From Medakamo hakoo (lineage: Eukaryota; Chlorophyta; Trebouxiophyceae; Coccomyxaceae), in the NCBI GenBank assembly GCA_026636295.1, contig CP089452.1, forward strand, positions 372,001 to 436,000: 64,000 bases of DNA, given 5' to 3'. The notes beneath the pieces are model-generated. The model did no database searches, was not told the DNA's origin, and saw only the letters and a list, made by a program, of their open reading frames with translations. The position numbers and the translations under genes are program-made. Positions 7,280 through 63,717 of this stretch are shown in pieces (within the stretch, counting starts at the first letter, position 1; the number at the start of each line of letters is the position of its first letter).

Positions 7280-9701
7280 ATGCTGCCAGAAGTCTCAAGC
7301 TCCAGCCTGGGCGCCGGCGGCGGCGCCAGCACGGCCTGGTGGGGCGGGCTGGAAGTCGAGGCCCACGCATGCGCGGCGCCCCCGCCCGCGCCCGCGCCGC
7401 TTCCCACCGGTCCCGCCACCCTGGATCCCCGCTGGCCGCAGGCGCCGCATGACGATTCGGCGCCCCTGTACGCCACAGACGACTTTCGGATCTATGGGTT
7501 CAAGGTGCGGGCGGTGGTGCGGGCCGTGTCGCGGCGCGGAGAAAATCCCAGAGAGCACGAGCATGGCACACTCGCACCGACGTTCACCAACACCCGCCGA
7601 AAATCCACACAGGTCGCCGCCTGCGCCAAGACGTACGCCCACGATTTCACGACCTGCCCGTTTGCGCACCCAGGTGAGGTCGTTGAGGGGGGGTGGCCCG
7701 GGTGTCTGCCCGCCGGAACCAGCCCGGAATCCGTGGCGGACGGGGGAACAGGGGCGAGCGGCCGGCCCCCGCGCGCGGCTTCCTCACGGCCGGTCCCTCC
7801 CTCCCCAAAATCCCTCCCCAAATCCACGACAGGCGAGAAAGCCCTGCGCCGTGACCCTCGTTCCGGAGTTTACACGGGCATCGCGTGCCCGGACATGAAA
7901 AAGGTGGGGGTGGGCAGTGTTTTGGGGGCGGCGGGCGAGGCGACGGGAGAGGAGGATGTGTGGGGGACCGGCTTCCGAGCGGACAACCACGGCCGACAAA
8001 CCTCTCCCACACCTCCCCCACACGCCCATCCCCGTTACGTAACACTCTCACAAACACACACACACATGAACACACACACACAGACCGGCCTGTGCCACCG
8101 GGGCGAGCGGTGCTACGCGTGCCACTCCGTGTTCGAGTACTGGCTGCACCCGACCCGGTGCGTCGTCGTGGCCGGGCGCGCGGCGGTGTTTTTCTCCATG
8201 CCGCCTCACCCCCCACCGCTCACAAATCCTTTTTCCATCCGACCCCCTCCACTCCTCCAGGTACCGCACCCAGGTGTGCAATGACGGCCCGCGCTGCACG
8301 CGGCGCATCTGCTTCTTTGCGCACTCGCCCGCCGAGCTGCGGTCCGGCGCGCCGAAACCGGCGCTGCCGCCCGAAGCGGCGGCTGGGCTGGCGGCGGAAG
8401 CGGCCGCGCGCGCGACTGCCACCTCCACGGCCCTGGCCGCGGCCGCGGCTGCTGCCGTCCGCGCGGGCGGCAGCCTGCCGGCTGGGCTAGGGACGGGTCT
8501 GCCGCCCGCGCCGCACCTGCCGGCAGCGCCGCTGGCCCACCGCCCGGCGTCGGACGACGGGTCCGGCTCCAGCGGCAGCGGCGGGTGCGCCCACCACCCG
8601 GGGCCCCCACTCGCCGACGCGTCCGCGTCCGCGCCGCGGCCGCGGGCCCGCGGTGCGCGCGGTGGCGCGCGCGCGCGTGCGGCCGCTGCTCGGGCGGCCG
8701 CTGCGGCCGCGGCCGCCGCCGCCGCCGCCGGCGCGGCCCTGGCGGGAACGTCTCCTCCGTCGCACGCCGGCTGGGGCGGGGGCCGGCCGTGGGGCGCCGC
8801 CCCGCCCTCCTCCGCCGGCTGGTTGTCGGCCGGCTCGCCCCGCTCCCCGTCGGGCGCGTCCCTGGGCTCGCTGGGCGGCGGGTTCGACTCCCTGGCCTCG
8901 GCGGCCGACCTGGCGGCCGCCCTGCGGAGCGCGTCCCTGGGCCCGGGCGACGCGTGGGCCGGGGGCGCCCGCGCGCCTGCCCCGGCCGCGACGCCGCCCC
9001 GCCGGTCCGCGTTTGAGTCGTCCCGCGCTGTGGGGGGCCTGCCACCTCAGTCTCCCACCAGCTGGGTGCCGCCGTACCCGCACGCGGCGCCGTGGCAGCC
9101 CCAACAACAACCGCCGTGGCCAGGCGCGCACCTCCCCCACCCCCTCCCCGGCCGCGCGTCTGCCGACTTCCCGGCGGCCGCCGAAGACCGGGCGGCGGAC
9201 ATGGGCGGGGCGGCGGCCCTGGACGCGGAAGCCCGGCGCCGGCGGTCGGCCAGCATGGCCGTGCCGGCGGGCGGCGGCGGCGGCGGTCCGTCGGGTGCGG
9301 CGCCTCACCACCACCAACACCACCCGCCGGTCGGCGGGTCGTGGCACGGCGGCGGCGGCGCGCCTGACGACGACGACGACGACGCGCCCGTCTCCTTACG
9401 CCTGGCGTCCTTGCGCTTGCAAGTCGCCATGGCCGAAGAGGAAGAAGCCCGGGCGGCCCTGGCCAAAGCGTGCGGGCGTGGCGTGGCGGTCCCAGCCGCC
9501 GCCTCCCCGCCCCTGTCCCGCCCGTCCCTGTCCCTCGGCCTGTCGTCGTCGCCTGTGTGGGGCCCGTCCTCGCCGCCCGAGTCGGCGGGCTGGCCGGACA
9601 CGGCGCCGGCTTTGGCTTCGACATCGCTGGAAGACGCCCGGCGCGTGCGCGCGTTCCTCGCCGGCGGCGCGGCGGCCGCGCCGCCACCGCCGTCTTCGTA
9701 A
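7280..9701 (+). CDS. plant-type RR-TZF CCCH zinc finger protein
   Basis: Five exons: 7280-7504, 7613-7673, 7833-7903, 8084-8157 and 8261-9701. Phases 0, 1, 0 and 2 join cleanly to 623 aa. The spliced zinc region starts DDFRIYGFK, then gives the plant RR motif C-x5-H-x4-C-x3-H ([16 protein letters not shown]). It continues with [16 protein letters not shown], a first CCCH finger C-x8-C-x5-C-x3-H ([16 protein letters not shown]...H), [16 protein letters not shown], and a second finger C-x5-C-x4-C-x3-H ending [15 protein letters not shown] proteins bind mRNA and act in stress granules and P-bodies in plants. The C-terminal 450 residues are Ala/Gly/Pro/Ser-rich and probably disordered, with short acidic and His runs. 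The zinc region is split over five exons while the tail is a single exon. Confidence 0.88.
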
Positions 9702-54827: not shown

Positions 54828-57800
54828 ATGCCGCCCATCACCCCGGCGCCCGTCGAGCCCGTGGTGGAGACGGAACCCGCCTACTGGTTTCGCCGCGTCG
54901 GCGAGCTGAGCTTTGTGAAGAGTGGGAGAGGGGCGGCGACGCGCCCTCCTCCCTCGTCGCGCCGGGTGTCGGCCGCGCCGACCGCGGGCGTCGTCGCCTT
55001 TTCGGACGGGAGCGGTGAGTGGGTGGGTGGGGGTGGGCGGTGTGGGCGTGGCGGCCGTCTCTCTGCTTCGCGTCGCAGCGCGCGCCGACCGATGCCTGCC
55101 CCCCGCTTGCGTTTCTCTCTCGCCTCACGTCCTCCCCGCCATCCAACAGCCGTCTACCTGGCCCGCACGGCCGCCCTGCTGGCTGCGGCTGTCCGAGTGG
55201 AGGAGGGCAGGTGAGTGGTTGGGAGAGGAATGTGCGCCCTCACTCTGTTCTCTCTCCTTGTTTTGGCCGCTCGCTCTCAACCACGCCCCCCCATCCCTGC
55301 CATCACCTCGGCGCACCCCCCCCCCTCCCCCAGCGAGCCCGACCTGGCCGACGCGTCGGCCGTCTGCCTCGCCACGCTCCCCGCGCCGGAGGCAGATGTG
55401 GAATTGACGCCCTGCGGTGGGCTGTTGGCCGTCGTCACGGCGGACCGCGTGGCCGTGTACGGCGTGGCGGCGCTGGCTGCCTCGCCCGCCGGCGCGGCCG
55501 CGCCGCCCCTCGCGACCGCGACTCCCCCGGCCGGACAGGCCGTGCGCCAGTGGGCGTGGGCGCCGCCCGCGCGCCCGGGCGGCCCACCCCGCTTCTCCCT
55601 GGTGACGACCGCCGGTCGGCTCCTGGAGGGCGACGTGGGGAGCGGCGGCGCTCTGGCGCTGGCGCCGGCAGAGCCCGGCGCTGCGCCAGACGGCGGCGGC
55701 GGGGGCGCGCAGCCCTCTTCGCCCCCCGTCACCGCCGTCGCCTGGGCGCCCGCCTCTTCCGCCTTTCCTGCGGGCCGCCGGGCCGTCGCGGCGGGCGACA
55801 CCATCACCATCGACGCCGGCGGCGGCGACGGCGCGTCCTCCCCCCACCCTCCGTCGTCGTCCTTTGCCCTGGCCTGGGCGCCCGCCGACGCGGCGCCGGG
55901 CGACGCCCTCACCGTCGACGGCCTGGCCTGGGCCGGCGACCGGGCCGTCTTGGTGGGTGGAGCGCTCGTCGATGCGGCCGGGTCGGCCCGGGACGTCGCC
56001 CCCCTGGCCCTGCTGCGGTGGGGGGAGGGCCCGGCCGGCGGCAGCGGCGGCGGCGGGTCCGACGCCCCGCTCGCCTGGGCGCAGGCGTGCGACTTTTTCG
56101 GCGCCATCATCCAGCCGCCGGATGGGGCGGGCGGGGGGCCGCCCCGCCCGGGCGTGGCGGTCGCCCGCGTCCCCGCCTGGGGCGCCCTCGTCGCGGCCCA
56201 CCCGGGCTCGCCCGACGACCACGTCCGGCTGATGGAGTATGCAGAGCCGACCGGCCCGCCCCCTCCCTCCCCCGCCGGCGGCGGCGGCGGTCCGCCGTGC
56301 CCGCCCGGCCGCCCGCCGCCGCCGGTGGAAGAGGAAATGAGCGATGAGTGGGCGGCGCTGCGCATCCCGTCCGCGCCCGACGGGGACGACAACTTCGTGA
56401 CGGGCCTGGCCGTGGACCTGACGGCGGCCGACCTGGACGCGCCGCACCCGGACCCGGAGCACGCGCCCCACCCGCCCGCCCAGCCGCTGCTGCTGGTCGG
56501 GACGTCGGACGGCGCGTTGCGGCTGGTCACCCTGGGCCGCGTGGTGCGTGGGCGGGCCGAAGACTGCATTGTGCGGCGCGCGCCGGCGGGCCTGCCGCCG
56601 CTGCCCGCGGGGGTGAGCGGCGCCGCGCCTGCTGCCGCGCCCGCCGAGAGCGCGGCCTCGCCGCCGACGGCAGCGGCCGCCGCGGCCGTGTCCTTGCCCA
56701 CGGAAGACGACGACGACGAGGAAGAGGAGGAGGCGCGCAGCAAGCCAGCCGACGACGGCGCCGCCGTGCGGGCCGCCGCGGCCGCCCCCCTGTCGTCCTC
56801 GTCCGACGAGGCGGAGGGGGAGGAGGCGGGCAGCGACGCCGAGTCGGTCGGCAGCCGGGTGCCGCCCGCCGCACCGCCGGCTGCTGCCCAGCCGCCCGCG
56901 CCGGCGCCTGTTCCCGCTCCTGCCGCGCCCTTGTTTGGCGCGGCGGCGCCCGTGGCGGCGCCCGCGGCGGCGCCCGCGGGCGGCGGGGCGTTTGCGTTTG
57001 GCGGCGCGCCTACCCCGCTGGCTGCGCCTCCGCCTCCGCCTCCGCCGCCTCCACCGCCGCCGCCTCCGCCGCCTCCTCCGCCGCCGCCGCCGCCGCCTCC
57101 ACCGGAACCCAAGCCATCCATCCCAGCGCCCGTCCCTGTCCTGGCGGACCTGCGGGGCGGCGCCGCCGAAACGGAGGCCGCGTTCTTGGCGGCGCTCGCC
57201 GCCACGCGCGCGGCCGAAGCGGCTGTTCTGGGCAGCGGCGGCCCCGGCGGCCCCGACCCGGCCGCGGCGGCCGCGGCGTTGCAGTCGTCCGTCAAGTCCG
57301 CGACAGACGCGGTGGACGCCGCCACCGCGGCAGTCGACGCCCAGGAAGCGTCGTTCGCGGGCCTGGCGGCGGATGTGCGGGCCGCGACGCGCGCGGCGGC
57401 CGGGCTCGCCGCGTTTGGGGGGGCGGCGGCGGGGAGGCCGGGCGCGGCCCGCCCGCGCCGGTCGGCCTGGAACCGGCCCTGGAGGACGCGCGGGCCCGGG
57501 CCCTGGCCGCCCGGGACGCCCTGGCCGCCCGTGTCGCGTCCGTCCGGTCCGCCCTGGACGCGGCGGACGAGGCGGCCGCGGCGGCCGCGGCCGGCGCGGC
57601 GTGGGCGGGCGCCGCCCCCGGCGCGCCCCTATCCGCCCGCCTGGCGTCCGCCGTCTCGGACGCGGGCGAAGCGACGGCCGCTGCCCTGGGTCGCGTCGGC
57701 CGCCTGCGCGAAGCCGCGGAAGCCGCGGGCCTGGCGGTCGAGTTTGGTGCGCCGCGTCCGCCGCCGTCGGCGGGCGGGAAGAAGGGCCGCCGGCGGGGCG

Positions 57801-60613
57801 CAGCGGCGGCCGTCGCGGCGCTCGCGCCCGAGCCGCGGCGCGGCGACGACCGCGCCTGGTGGGCGGGCGGGCCGCACCGCCGCGCCGCCGCCCTGCAGTG
57901 GGTGCCCGCCCGCCAGTCGCCCGCGGTGGCGGCGGCGGCAGGGCGGGCGGCCCACGCACGGCCGGGCAGCAGCAGGGCGGCCGCGCGCGCGCCGCCGGCC
58001 GACCCCTGGGCGGGCCGCCCCGGCGCGGCCGCGGCCGAGGCGGTGCTCCTGGCCGCGGCCACGGTCGGCGGGCCGCGGCTCACGGTCGTCGGGGCGGACG
58101 GGCGCGTGCAGGCGCCCGCCCCTCGGCCCACCCCGCCCCCGCCCCCGCCCCGGGCGCCGCCGCCGCCGCCGCCGGCTGCCGTCGCGTCGCCCACGCGCGG
58201 GCTGGTCGGCCTGCCGGCCGCTGCGGGGGCTGCCGCCGCCGCCGCCGCTCCACCCGCGCTCGCGCCCGCGCCCTTTTCCTTTGCCGCTCCGCCCGCGGCG
58301 ACGGGGGCGCCCGCGTTCGCATTCGGCGGGCCCGGCGCCGCTGCGACGCCGCCGCCTCCGCCGCCCGCCCGGCCCGGCTCGTCCGAAGACGGCGGGCGCG
58401 GCGGCGGCGGCGAGCGGGCGCTCGCCACCCGCCTCGCCTTCGACTCGCCGTCCGTCGCGGCGGCCACGGCCACGGTGGCCCGGGCCAAGGCTCCGACCAG
58501 CGCTGCGCCGCCGCCTCCCATCCCGTCGGCCGCGGCCGTGAAAGCGGCCGCGTCCGCCAGCCTGCCGGGCGCGGAGGTGCGGGCGCCGCCGCCGGCCGCG
58601 CCGCCCCTCCCGCCCGTGCCGTCGGCGTCGGCCGTGGCAGCCGCCCAAAAGCTGGTCGTGCCCGGTGCTGCCGGCCCGTCCAAGCCCAAACCAGCCGGCG
58701 GCGGCGGCGGCATGCCCCCCATCCCGTCCGCGGCGGCGGTGGCCGCCGCCCAAAAGCTGACGGTGCCAGGCACGGCCAAGCCAAAAGCGCCAGCTGGTGG
58801 AGGCGGGATGCCGCCCGTCCCGTCCGCGGCCGCGGTCGCCGCGGCCGCGAAACTGACCGTGCCTGCGGCGGCGCCGGGCGCTCCGAAGCCCAAGCCGGCG
58901 GCAGGCGGTGGCATGCCGCCCATTCCGTCGGCGGCGGCCGTCGCGGCTGCGCAGCGGGTGGTCGTGCCGGGAGGTGCGGCCACGTCCAAGCCCAGCGCCG
59001 CCGCCGCCGCGGCCATGCCGCCCATCCCGTCCGCCGCCGCTGTGGCGGCGGCTCAAAAGGTTACCCTGCCCGGTGCGGGTGCGGCCACGGCCAAGCCCAA
59101 ACCGGCGGCGGCGGGCGGGCTGCCGCCCGTCCCGTCTGCGGCCGCGGTCGCGGCGGCGCAGGCGGTGCGCGCGCCCGGTGCGAGCGCGCCGGCCGCGACG
59201 CCTCCACCACCACCACCACCACCACCCAAGAAGGAGGAGGAAGAGGCGGAGCCGGCCACCTCTTCCTCAGCGGGCGGCGGCTTTCGCATCCCGACCGCGG
59301 AGGAGGCGGTGGAGGCGGTGCGCGTGCTCGCGTCTCCGAGCCCCAGCCCGCCGGGCAGCGGCCCGGCCGGGCGTGGGACGGCGGCCGCCGGGGCGCCCAG
59401 CCCGGCGCCTCCTCCTCCTCCTCCGCCGCCGCCGCCGCCTCCCGCTGCCCAGCCCACCGCGTCGGCGACGTCCACGGGCGACGCGGCGTCCGACGCCGCC
59501 TCCCCCTCCGCGCCCGGCCTGTTCGGCGGCCTGTCCCTCGGCGGCGCGACGGCCGAATCCAAACCGCCCGCGGCCGCCAAGCCCTTTGGCAGCTTTGCGT
59601 TTGGGGCGCCGCCTGCGGCGGCGGGTGGTGGGGCGTCCGCGTTTGGGGCACCGCCGCCCGCTGCCGCGTCCGCACCACCGCCCGCGGCGCCCGCGTTTGG
59701 AGCGCCGCCGCCCGCGTCGGGCGCTCCACCGGCCGCGCCCGCCTTTCCTTCGGCCTTTGGCGCGTCGACAGCCGCGCCCGCCCCAGCCTTTAACTTTCCG
59801 GCGGCGGCGGCGACGGCGGCGGCCACGCCCTCGGCCAAGCCCGCCGCCGGCAGCGTGTTTGGCGGCGCTGCTTTCGGCGCGCCGCCGGCGCTCGGCGCGG
59901 CGGTGGGGCCCTCGCCCTTTGGCACGCCCGCCGCCGCGGCAGCCAGCCCGGCTTTCCCTGCTGCGTCTGCGGCGTCGCCGTCCACGCCCGCGAGTGGCGG
60001 CGGCTTTGCGAAATTCGGCGCGTCCGGCGGCGGTTTTGGTGCCATCGCGGCCGCGGCGGGGGGCGGGGGTGGTGGCGGCGGCTTTGCCGGCTTTGGCACG
60101 CCCCAGCAGCAAGCACCGCCCCCGCAACAGCCGTCCGTCTTTGGCGCGCCGTCCTCCGCCACGCCCTCCGTCTTTGGTGGGGGCGGGGCGACGACGGCGT
60201 TCGGCGGCGCGGCACCCGCGTTTGGTGCGGGGCCCTTTGGCGGCGGGCCGTTCGGCGCGCCGGCCGCGCCGGCCGCCGCGCCGCCCACGGGCTTTGGAGG
60301 CTTTGGGCAGCAGCAGCAACAAGCGCCGAGCGCGTTTGGGCAGCCACAGCCAGCGGCGCCGCCCGCGTTCGGCGCGGCGCCGCCCGCGTTCGGCGCGGCG
60401 CCGTCCGTGTTCGGCGCGCCCGGGCAACAGCAGCAGCAGCAACCCCCGTCCGCGTTTGGCGGCGGCGCCGGGTTTGGCGCGCCCGCGCTGATGGGCTTTG
60501 GGTCCGGCGCCGCGGCGGCGCCGCCAGGCCCAGGCTTGTCGGGCTTTGGCACGCCGGGCGGGTCCGCGCCGTCGGCGTCGGCGTCGCCCGGCATGTTCCA
60601 GATGCGCAAGTGA
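54828..60613 (+). CDS. NUP214/NUP159-like FG nucleoporin, with one apparent frame change
   Basis: Exons 54828-55014, 55150-55210 and 55334-60613 (phases 1 and 2) give about 1840 aa. The N-terminal third resembles a beta-propeller: [38 protein letters not shown] and further blade-like segments to [20 protein letters not shown]. Acidic linkers, poly-Pro (about 57010-57110) and a heptad Ala-rich region follow. The C-terminal third has many FG and FGAP/FGxP dipeptides, ending GMFQMRK, typical of nuclear pore FG domains. Between 57410 and 57470, close to a G7 run, the protein-like frame shifts by one base, best explained by a missing base in the sequence, though a real shift cannot be excluded. 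Seven copies of a [13 protein letters not shown] repeat lie at about 58510-59190. NUP214 is favoured over other FG proteins by layout only. Confidence 0.75.
58510..59190 (+). repeat. seven-copy [11 protein letters not shown] protein repeat in the nucleoporin
   Basis: Seven tandem units of about 25-40 residues share PP(I/V)[11 protein letters not shown] followed by (L/V)(V/T)VPG. Copies are diverged at the ends but nearly invariant in the PSAAAVAAA core. Confidence 0.85.
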
Positions 60614-61277: not shown

Positions 61278-63717
61278 TCACGGCACGGTCGCCGTGTCGC
61301 CGACGACAGACGTGCCGCCCTCGGTCTGCCCAAACTCGCCCGCGACGTCCAGGGCGGCCAGGTCCTGGCCGACGGGCGCGTAGACGGGGCCCTTGCGCGG
61401 GTTGTACAGGACCTTGGCGGGCGCGTAGACGAGCTTGGCGGGCGCGACGACCTTGCCTGTTTTTTTTTTGAGGGGGTGGGGGGTGGGGGGGTGAAGGGGA
61501 TGTGTGGGCGGCGCGCGCGCAGGGCGTGAGCAGCAGGTGATGGGAGCGCGCGCTTCGGCGACGTCGCGCCCCGCGCCCTCCTCCTCCTCTCGCCTGCGCA
61601 CCTTGCGGCTGGATGTTCTTGCCGACGGGCGAGACGTTGATCTGGCGTGGGGAGGGGGGAGGGGCGGGGGGTGCGGGGGGAGGCATTGAGTGCGGAGTGT
61701 GTGGGTTGGGAGGGAGAGAGCCGAGCACCGCCGTGCTTTTGGGCGCGCGCGGCGACGACACCAAAGGCGCGGCTGCGGGCGGGGCGGACGCGCGGGGAGC
61801 GGCACCAACAATGACACCGCGGGTCCGGTACCTTGATGGGTTGGACGTTGAGGCCTGGACGCGTGTTGTGTGGCGGGGGAGTGGTGGGGCGGCGGGTGGG
61901 TGAGGGATGGGGGATGGGGGTGGGATGGAAAAAAAAAACAAAGGCGCGTGGGACGGTGGCAGCCGCGCAGACTCTTCCACCACCGCCCCCTCAGCATCGC
62001 AAAGCCACACCGTACCCTGGGGTTGCACGTTGAGACCAATGGGGCCTGGTGGAGTTGTTTTGGGGGGAGGCGTGCGGGCGTGTGAGAGCGGTCGGCGGGG
62101 AGAGTGGGGTGGGGAGGTGGGTGCGCGGGCGGGCGGGTGAGGGGGGGGGGGCAGCAGGCGCGGCGGTGTGTCGGACGCTGCTTTGAGCCCTGGCGCACGC
62201 GCACACGGGTGGGGAGGCATGCCGGCTGGTGCACCCCGCCCGCTCACCGAGGTACACCAGGACTGGCTGCACATTGAGGCCTGGGAGAAGAGGGGAGAGC
62301 GGGCGGGAGGAGGAGCGGGGAGAAGGGGGGGGGGGGTGAGAGGCGCGCCGACGAAGGACGGACGGGACGGGACGACGGCGAATCCAGCAGCAGCGCCCAC
62401 TCTCTCCCCCCTCCCTCCCATCCCTCAGCAAACACGCACCCTGCGCCTGGACGCGAGCGCCGATCTGTGGGTGGTGGGGAGAGCGAGTGGGGGAACGGTG
62501 GGAGTGAGGGGGGTGGGTGGGGGAGCGCCCTTCATTTCCAGGGGTCGGGCACCGCCGCGCGGGTGGCCCGACCCCCTCCCCCCTCCCCCCACGCCAACGC
62601 ACGGGGTCAATCCAGATCAGCTGGGGGAAGATGTTGACGCCCTGGAAGGCGGCGGCAGCTTTGTTTGCGGGTGTCGACGGGTGGGTGGGTGGGTGGGGAG
62701 TGACGGCCCGTGAGTGCCGTCCGTCCGTCCTGTCTCAGCGGCCCGCCCCACGCCCGGCCCGCACGGTGAGCTCGACACCCCCCCCCAAAAAAAAACGCAC
62801 CGCCCGTCGGGAAGAAGGACAGCAGGGACGGCGCAAAGTTGAGGGCGGTCAGGGACGCGCCCACGCCGGTCTGAGAGTGAGGTGTGGGGCGGGGTGGTGG
62901 TGGGGGGTGGGCGGGAGTGAGCGGGTGTGGGGGGCGGGGGAGATCCCATCCGTCCCATCCCCCCCCCACCCCAAAAAAAGAACGTACGTGCGTCTCCTGC
63001 AACACGCACGGCGCAAAGTTGGCAAACGTCTTGGACGCCGCAAACTTGGTGGCCTTGACCTTGTGCCCCCCGCCCAGCTTGCCCTTGACGGCGCCGGCGA
63101 CCTTGCCGACGAGCGCTTCCAGTTCGTGCGGCAGGTCGGCCACGTCGGCCGCAAAGACCGGGTCGGCCAGGTGCAGGCGGGGGAACAGGTCCTCGCCGTT
63201 GGCGACCTTGGCCAGGTGGCCGTGCGCGGACAGCATGACGCGGCCCAGCGCGGACACGGCCGCGTCTTCCGACCCCTCCTTCTTCAGGAGGACCTGGGAC
63301 AGGACGGACGCCCAGTTGCGGTAGTCGTCGGGCATGTCGCCGGCGAACGGGTCGGCGGGGACCTCGAACTTTTCCGCGGCGGTCGCGACGGGCGCGGTGG
63401 CCAGCGCGAGCGCGGCGGCGGCGCTGAGTGTGTGTGTTTTTTTAGGGCAGGGTGTGGTGGGGTGGCGTGAGGAAGCGATGCGTTTTTCTGCCGCACCCAG
63501 GCGTGCGTGAGGGAGTGGAATGTCTGACATGGAGGGCGGGAGGGCGGTGGCGGCGCGTCACTGCCCGACGCTGCGGCGCCGTTGACTAGGACGGGTGTGC
63601 GAATTCGCAACGACGCGCCGACAGAGGCGGCCAGGGCCGACAGTTTCCTGTCTCACCGGCGCCGCTCCCCTCCCTCCCGCACGCGCTCCCCACGCACCCG
63701 ACCAGGAAACGAAGCAT
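61278..63717 (-). CDS. secreted ten-exon protein with NxQPxG micro-exon repeats
   Basis: Ten exons on the minus strand: 63717-63698, 63423-62988, 62870-62801, 62658-62603, 62464-62440, 62280-62248, 62045-62016, 61854-61832, 61641-61602 and 61456-61278. Every junction restores frame, giving 303 aa. The first junction builds the signal peptide MLRFLVG-AAAALALATAPVATA. Exon 2 encodes a globular part (FEVPADPFAGDMPDDYRNWA, VMLSAHGHLAKVANGEDLFP, KFAASKTFANFAPCVLQETH). Exons 4-9 mostly add one short repeat each: FQGVNIFPQLIWIDP, IGARVQAQ, GLNVQPVLVYL, GPIGLNVQPQ, GLNVQPIK, INVSPVGKNIQPQ. The last exon continues KVVAPAKLVYAPAKVLYNP. Proteins with NVQPxLIxIxPxG repeats occur in various protists and are thought secreted; function is unknown. 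All acceptors end AG, one being AAAG. Confidence 0.72.

Follow-up and report, generated by a model that had tools for sequence, protein, structure and literature searches.

From comparison of sequences, it appears probable that the gene described here carries an old array of heptad repeats, that this array belongs to an undescribed, secreted-looking family of green-algal proteins, and that introns were inserted into it repeatedly afterwards, differing from copy to copy. The gene (W) lies on the minus strand of the window, i.e., the whole analysed stretch of 64,000 nucleotides (C15:372001-436000 of an assembly of 15.6 Mb in 16 contigs; GC content of 66-83% per 2 kb). It runs from 63717 to 61278, and its 10 exons (Table 1) join into a 912-nt frame of 303 codons plus stop. 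Eight of the nine introns (I2-I9) fall between residues 152 and 244, seven (I3-I9) flank or interrupt the 207 nt that make up exons 4-9, and intron density over the whole of W is 9.9 per kb of coding sequence. Exon phases vary: only exons E6 and E7 are of phase 1-1. As regards the proposed change of repeat number by exon skipping, which may or may not occur, each of these two is frame-neutral, whereas E8 or E9 alone is not. The original prediction that eight introns cut a stretch of about 90 residues was thus borne out, with coordinates, strand, exon sizes, product length (303 aa) and restoration of the frame all as described.

Table 1. Exons and introns of the window gene W (positions in the window), other family copies in the same genome (positions on contigs) and tail introns per gene (offsets in nt, counted from the tail's first glycine; E and G in their own registers)
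Feature	Position or offsets	Strand	Description
W exon 1, 20 nt	63698..63717	-	start codon and first part of the putative signal peptide (MLRFLVG); donor CGG/GTGCGT
W exon 2, 436 nt	62988..63423	-	remainder of the putative signal peptide and conserved N-terminal domain; donor recovered by relatives
W exon 3, 70 nt	62801..62870	-	repeat tail begins
W exon 4, 56 nt	62603..62658	-	unusual AAAG acceptor, the sole frame-keeping one found by eye
W micro-exon 5, 25 nt	62440..62464	-	IGARVQAQG
W micro-exon 6, 33 nt	62248..62280	-	LNVQPVLVYLG; one 63-nt unit with exon 7
W micro-exon 7, 30 nt	62016..62045	-	PIGLNVQPQG
W micro-exon 8, 23 nt	61832..61854	-	LNVQPIK; one 63-nt unit with exon 9
W micro-exon 9, 40 nt	61602..61641	-	INVSPVGKNIQPQG
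W exon 10, 179 nt	61278..61456	-	end of repeat tail, C-terminus, stop
W introns 1-9	within 61457..63697	-	274, 117, 142, 138, 159, 202, 161, 190, 145 nt; all GT-AG
Family copies (three)	C15:198.9-206.7 kb
Family copy	C15:208.5-209.8 kb
Family copies (two)	C2:58-62 kb
Family copies (two)	C11:658 and 664 kb		weak
W tail introns	-87, -17, 39, 64, 97, 127, 150, 190		8 introns
B tail introns	-87, -15, 39, 64, 97, 154, 190		7 introns
C tail introns	-87, 97, 127, 142, 261		5 introns
D tail introns	1, 89, 97, 126		4 introns
F tail introns	56, 119		2 introns
G tail introns	31, 94		2 introns, own register
E tail intron	72		1 intron, own register

The structure of W, tail introns included, holds up on homology. 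Junctions were tested with a local spliced aligner (protein against DNA), the canonical splice-site scoring of which was common to all runs. Alignment of P0002, a metagenome ORF of 276 aa that could derive from a transcript, recovers every border from the exon 2 donor to the exon 10 acceptor, including both ends of exons 3-9, and also yields one spurious gap-like intron inside exon 2; its score is 718, compared with at most 77.5 for 20 residue-shuffled copies. Parts of P0004, P0006, P0060 and Elliptochloris P0048 lead to identical tail junctions over the stretch that each covers (P0006 to the exon 8 acceptor), with spurious upstream pieces in the alignments of P0004, P0006 and P0048. The products of two paralogs, B and F, do so as well within their reach, that of F from the exon 3 donor onward, but this support is not independent, since both models were found with the W product as query. 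The acceptor of exon 2 was set by the frame and by signal-peptide logic, and exon 1, outside the reach of the relatives' alignments, was placed from the frame only. The modelled segments might conceivably not be exons of one mRNA, given that the AAAG acceptor of exon 4 is weak and that many open frames are expected in GC-rich DNA. However, identical junctions from five outside relatives, together with a dN well below dS (0.13 and 0.55 between the tails of W and B), make such a modelling artefact extremely unlikely.

The product of W gave no match up to E 1 in Pfam and NCBIfam scans, in agreement with the original view, which put no domain name to the globular part. Among seven relatives scanned with Pfam, nothing was obtained for five, and P0003 and P0018 gave weak matches below the cut-off in low-complexity parts. 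Protein searches, which covered 5.8 billion proteins and each scored their best 7,995-7,998 candidates, returned 30, 73 and 82 relatives at the thresholds used. Most proteins in the database carry no species name; the species-named relatives are 14 proteins from Coccomyxa and Elliptochloris, found in profile searches (P0048, P0067, P0068, P0072, P0074-P0077, P0079-P0083 and P0085), and the others are without one. W belongs to this Coccomyxa/Elliptochloris repeat family, as it has a homologous N-terminal domain and a heptad array, and its tail junctions are recovered by P0048. Thus, for example, COCSUDRAFT_32478, CVIRNUC_004129 (annotated as 'Extracellular protein') and WJX81_002996 share the N-terminal part and an Ala-Pro-Cys region, followed by an array of NVQPQG/NIQPQG heptads, although these Coccomyxa/Elliptochloris proteins are distant from the W product (local identities of about 25-40%). 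In the literature that could be searched, no paper mentions the locus tags of four Coccomyxa relatives. Judged from these searches, the family is undescribed; it is seen mostly in metagenome ORFs, and the Pfam and NCBIfam scans gave no match above the curated cut-off.

The N-terminus (MLRFLVGAAAALALATAPVATA) is signal-peptide-like by eye. Because of this start, the clustering of the paralogs and the 'Extracellular protein' label of P0074 and P0083 (Coccomyxa viridis), one may guess at a secreted, surface or wall protein. AlphaFold models of two relatives (mean pLDDT of 46.9 and 50.5) contain helices in the N-terminal domain. In the model with the latter value, that of Coccomyxa P0067, strands start at 142, 163, 184, 205 and 226, i.e., 21 residues apart, with others between. 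A beta-solenoid tail, for which structure prediction was the proposed test, is weakly suggested by this spacing; confidence in both models is low. Foldseek with the P0067 model gave 44 matches, none with E <= 0.001 (best E 0.77), and a profile compared with solved structures gave seven, none convincing (best E 0.51). Two further features were noted among the relatives. P0016, P0018, P0027, P0045, P0063, P0064 and paralog F (G000:C2:61957-62179) contain His/Asp- or Met/His-rich stretches (DGHDHDH, GHDMASM, GGHGGSMDGMAGMDGMAGM), which look metal-binding and of which W has none. In P0016, P0018, P0044 and P0086-P0088, a copy of the N-terminal domain follows the repeat tail in the same ORF, which suggests tandem or polyprotein forms.

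The tail of W is an array of 13 heptads of the type G-L-N-V-Q-P-x, with a periodicity of 21 residues; proline occupies position 6 in 11 of the 13, and position 4 is hydrophobic in all of them. The heptad, rather than the exon, is the unit. It had been proposed that each micro-exon supplies one NxQPxG repeat, but the full motif is present only in E7 and E9. E6+E7 and E8+E9 each total 63 nt (21 residues), split 33/30 and 23/40, respectively. Six tails of 93 residues, picked as full and alignable (those of W, paralogs B, C, D and F, and P0004), align without a gap. In these six, heptads at the same position of different proteins are 59% identical, compared with 29% at other positions, and heptads at unlike positions are no more alike within a gene (0.288) than between genes (0.289). 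Within W, units E6+E7 and E8+E9 are alike at 12 of 21 residues, whereas they share 17 and 18, respectively, with their counterparts in B. To judge from two metagenome relatives, the array can vary in length within the family: the tail of P0002 has a one-residue gap, and P0010, which shows the one whole-unit change seen, is without one 21-residue unit that P0003 and P0008 have, in an otherwise near-identical tail and an ORF uninterrupted there. The missing unit of P0010 may reflect repeat deletion or assembly collapse.

These comparisons do not favour the idea that the repeats multiplied by exon duplication. Gap-free positional alignment with intron-poorer paralogs and P0004, and the absence of extra likeness within genes, go against it, and a recent duplication in W is disfavoured because neighbouring units would then be alike, yet they are not. 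One version of it would be the copying of a 63-nt phase 1-1 exon together with its intron, in which case the Gln-Gly introns at offsets 1, 64, 127 and 190 would be relics of unit borders, lost piecemeal in other copies. Such a history could account for I5, I7 and I9 lying exactly 63 nt apart and all in phase 1, for the intron of D at offset 1 and for a spacing above uniform chance. However, the four units of W are pairwise at most 0.60 identical in nucleotides, with no shared run above 8 nt, and units within a gene show no excess similarity. Moreover, the 63-nt-spaced introns of F (56, 119) and G (31, 94) sit at other points of the unit, the array of F still aligns 1:1 with that of W, and Gln-Gly introns are absent from the scorable outgroup rows. 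Exon duplication as the source of the W array is thus not supported by sequence and seems improbable. The notion that introns stabilise the array was also dropped, as nucleotide identity among the units of W, B, C and F does not exceed 0.71, nor do shared runs exceed 11 nt.

The tail introns differ between copies. W has about eight further family copies in its genome. Their models come from the same spliced aligner; those of the two C11 copies are poor, as are those of E, F and G in their 5' parts. W and paralogs B, C and D together have 13 distinct tail-intron sites when sites within 2 nt are merged. I4 and I9 are at the identical nucleotide in W and B, and their I3 sites are 2 nt apart; C is without I3-I5 and I8-I9. 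For metagenome relatives, intron states were taken from ORF read-through, partly scored by eye. P0004 has no tail introns: its ORF carries the whole tail in one piece and elsewhere enters intron-like sequence in two places (by eye), and therefore it looks genomic. P0005, the C-terminus of which is very close to that of W apart from its last units (MKKVIAPAG), has I2, I5 and I6, whereas at I3, I4, I7, I8 and I9 its frame continues uninterrupted and is no longer or shorter than that of W (by eye). In the genomic-looking Coccomyxa-like ORFs P0078, P0094, P0096 and P0097, an apparent intron follows NIQPV (by eye), at a site unused in W. Among the paralog models, C may have a 15-nt exon (202098-202084 of G000:C15) and D one of 8 nt (G000:C15:199411-199404), both smaller than any in the W tail, and the seventh modelled intron of B (G000:C15:204996-204820) is apparently GC-AG, with a strong GCAAGT donor.

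A maximum-likelihood tree was built from 18 rows chosen from 111 proteins and the copies of the window genome; E, G, both C11 copies and P0023 were left out, and D and F form long branches. In this tree, W groups with P0007, P0005 and P0009 (support 96/95), and W and B as a single clade are rejected (p-AU 4.6e-7). The minimum number of changes at the nine intron sites is 4, 2, 2, 3, 2, 2, 1, 2 and 2, 20 in all, with two changes each for I3, I4 and I9, which are common to W and B. None of I2-I9 was found in those outgroup rows (F, P0004, P0011, P0032 and P0037) in which a given site could be read; the scoring, by eye, covered just I2-I4 or I5 in P0011 and just I2 and I3 in P0037. Because the rows readable at each site are without these introns, the eight tail introns of W are best read as gains that postdate the array. 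For I3, I4 and I9, parallel gain, repeated loss and gene conversion are possible. The gene thus looks like a hotspot of intron turnover rather than the outcome of exon copying.

One may also imagine an intron-rich ancestor of the W/B/C/D clade and repeated loss, for example by cDNA recombination, the intron-poor copies being derived. Absent introns are often adjacent (I3-I4 and I7-I9 in P0005, I3-I5 and I8-I9 in C), as block loss predicts, and I4 and I9 occupy the same nucleotide in W and B though these are not sisters. However, the distributions of I7, I8 and the B-type I8 differ, and, as the outgroup rows are without the eight introns where readable, each would still require a gain after the array had formed. 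Loss on this scale is therefore conceivable but the less likely course.

The sites of the presumed gains recur in the repeat unit. I5, I7 and I9 of W lie inside Gln-Gly codons (CAGG^GC twice and CAAG^GC once), and sites of this type are also used by the first intron of D, I5 and I9 of B, and I7 of C. I2 and I4 of W are 126 nt apart, and F and G each have one pair of introns 63 nt apart, located elsewhere in the unit. Among the 13 sites of W, B, C and D, seven pairs are a multiple of 63 nt apart, compared with 1.04 expected (P 3.8e-4, uniform). W alone has four such pairs, with a P of 0.001 against uniform placement, 0.005 against G-preceded sites and 0.10 against NG^R sites; in a like-for-like test, the corresponding values for its site recurrence are 0.0095 (G-preceded) and 0.049 (NG^R). 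Since the excess fades with base-matched chance sites, most of the recurrence may be due to a preference for certain flanking bases. As a tentative extension, the array could have acted as a landing strip, its recurrent Gln-Gly codons offering the same splice-compatible site every 63 nt, with two paralogs of different clades in one genome gaining I4 and I9 independently at identical nucleotides; we regard this as rather doubtful. If it were true, micro-exons would have arisen without loss of protein, in a series of zero to eight introns over one unchanged array.

As for the source of the introns, entry of introner-type transposons has some precedent. Introners are reported to be commoner in aquatic species (PMC9860276), and a recent, massive intron invasion is reported in the green alga Micromonas (PMC3879977). 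However, introns 6 and 8 of W, two of nine tried in a search that skips simple repeats, are single-copy genome-wide, so that introner copies were rejected for these two, and matching-site intron pairs are no more alike than others. The AG/G at intron borders does not help in this respect, as a target-site duplication is indistinguishable there from the splice consensus. Introner entry therefore has a low probability.

Alternatively, an intron may have spread from repeat to repeat within the gene by recombination between units, which would fit the reuse of the same unit point in W, F and G. Against this, similarity is not raised in the nine intron pairs of the same class (mean z 0.25, compared with 1.05 for 440 other pairs), and the DNA of the units is now much diverged. 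Intron pairs from the same site in different paralogs (n=16) resemble each other no better (mean z 0.77), and events of this kind in the distant past are therefore possible; nonetheless, spread between repeats is hardly the favoured source. Some pairs from unlike sites score above dinucleotide shuffles (top score 47, compared with 38), which may reflect pyrimidine-rich tracts. An Rfam scan of the W introns gave one sub-threshold match only, to mir-185 inside intron 5 (E 0.33); this was taken as chance, and an intronic RNA gene was rejected.

The original expectation that other genes have fewer introns fits what was seen of domain pieces. In the window, GH31 and Syf1 domains lie in single frames, and histone deacetylase and starch synthase domains were only partly matched within frames. 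Among the other genes checked, 11 of 23 LHC matches cover at least 150 of 162 positions in one piece, and CCT and HSP70 (profiles of 490 and 599 positions) were found as 24 pieces in 11 genes and 13 pieces in seven genes, i.e., one to three pieces per gene, where not every gap between pieces is an intron. The best solved relatives of the chlorophyll a/b-binding proteins are named Lhca4 and LHCI/LHCII proteins, and we infer that the genome is that of a green-lineage alga. Chloropicon primus was rejected as its source, since the mean GC content of that species, 57.5% (PMC6731263), does not agree with the 66-83% per 2 kb of the window. Elsewhere in the window, a 1421-aa open frame (56348-60613, plus strand) without a Pfam match has many GF/FG-type repeats towards its end and is nucleoporin-like by eye.

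The favoured history, that of an old array with later introns, would run as follows. The protein consists of a conserved helical N-terminal domain and 13 heptads, most with a proline corner. The array, which seems old and has the same length in all six members whose tails were aligned in full, may be a beta-solenoid-like element of the cell surface. Spliceosomal introns would have been inserted into it repeatedly, leaving each copy with a different set; in W, eight introns across 93 residues would have produced seven internal exons, which measure 23-70 nt. As the tail introns are short (117-202 nt), splicing by intron definition would tolerate exons of this size without a special regulator. 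Insertion would have hit corresponding positions of the 63-nt unit more than once, notably at Gln-Gly codons, and could thus create the look of one repeat per exon without any copying of exons. Such a look, therefore, is no proof of exon duplication. The coding array provides a scale on which introns can be compared, in that six residue-aligned tails range from zero introns (P0004) to eight (W), and gains, losses and parallel insertions can be counted on it among close relatives. It bears on the origin of introns and on why certain sites gain them again and again.

Two known systems invite comparison. With introner-derived introns (PMC9860276), W shares an apparent gain of introns in a eukaryote of aquatic type (its habitat being inferred), but it differs in that two of its introns are single-copy and matching sites are without shared sequence. 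With plant micro-exon genes (PMC8831610, PMC12409088), it shares the small size of its exons, five consecutive internal ones measuring 23-40 nt; those of W, however, all belong to a single repeat array, and paralogs disagree on many of the exon borders.
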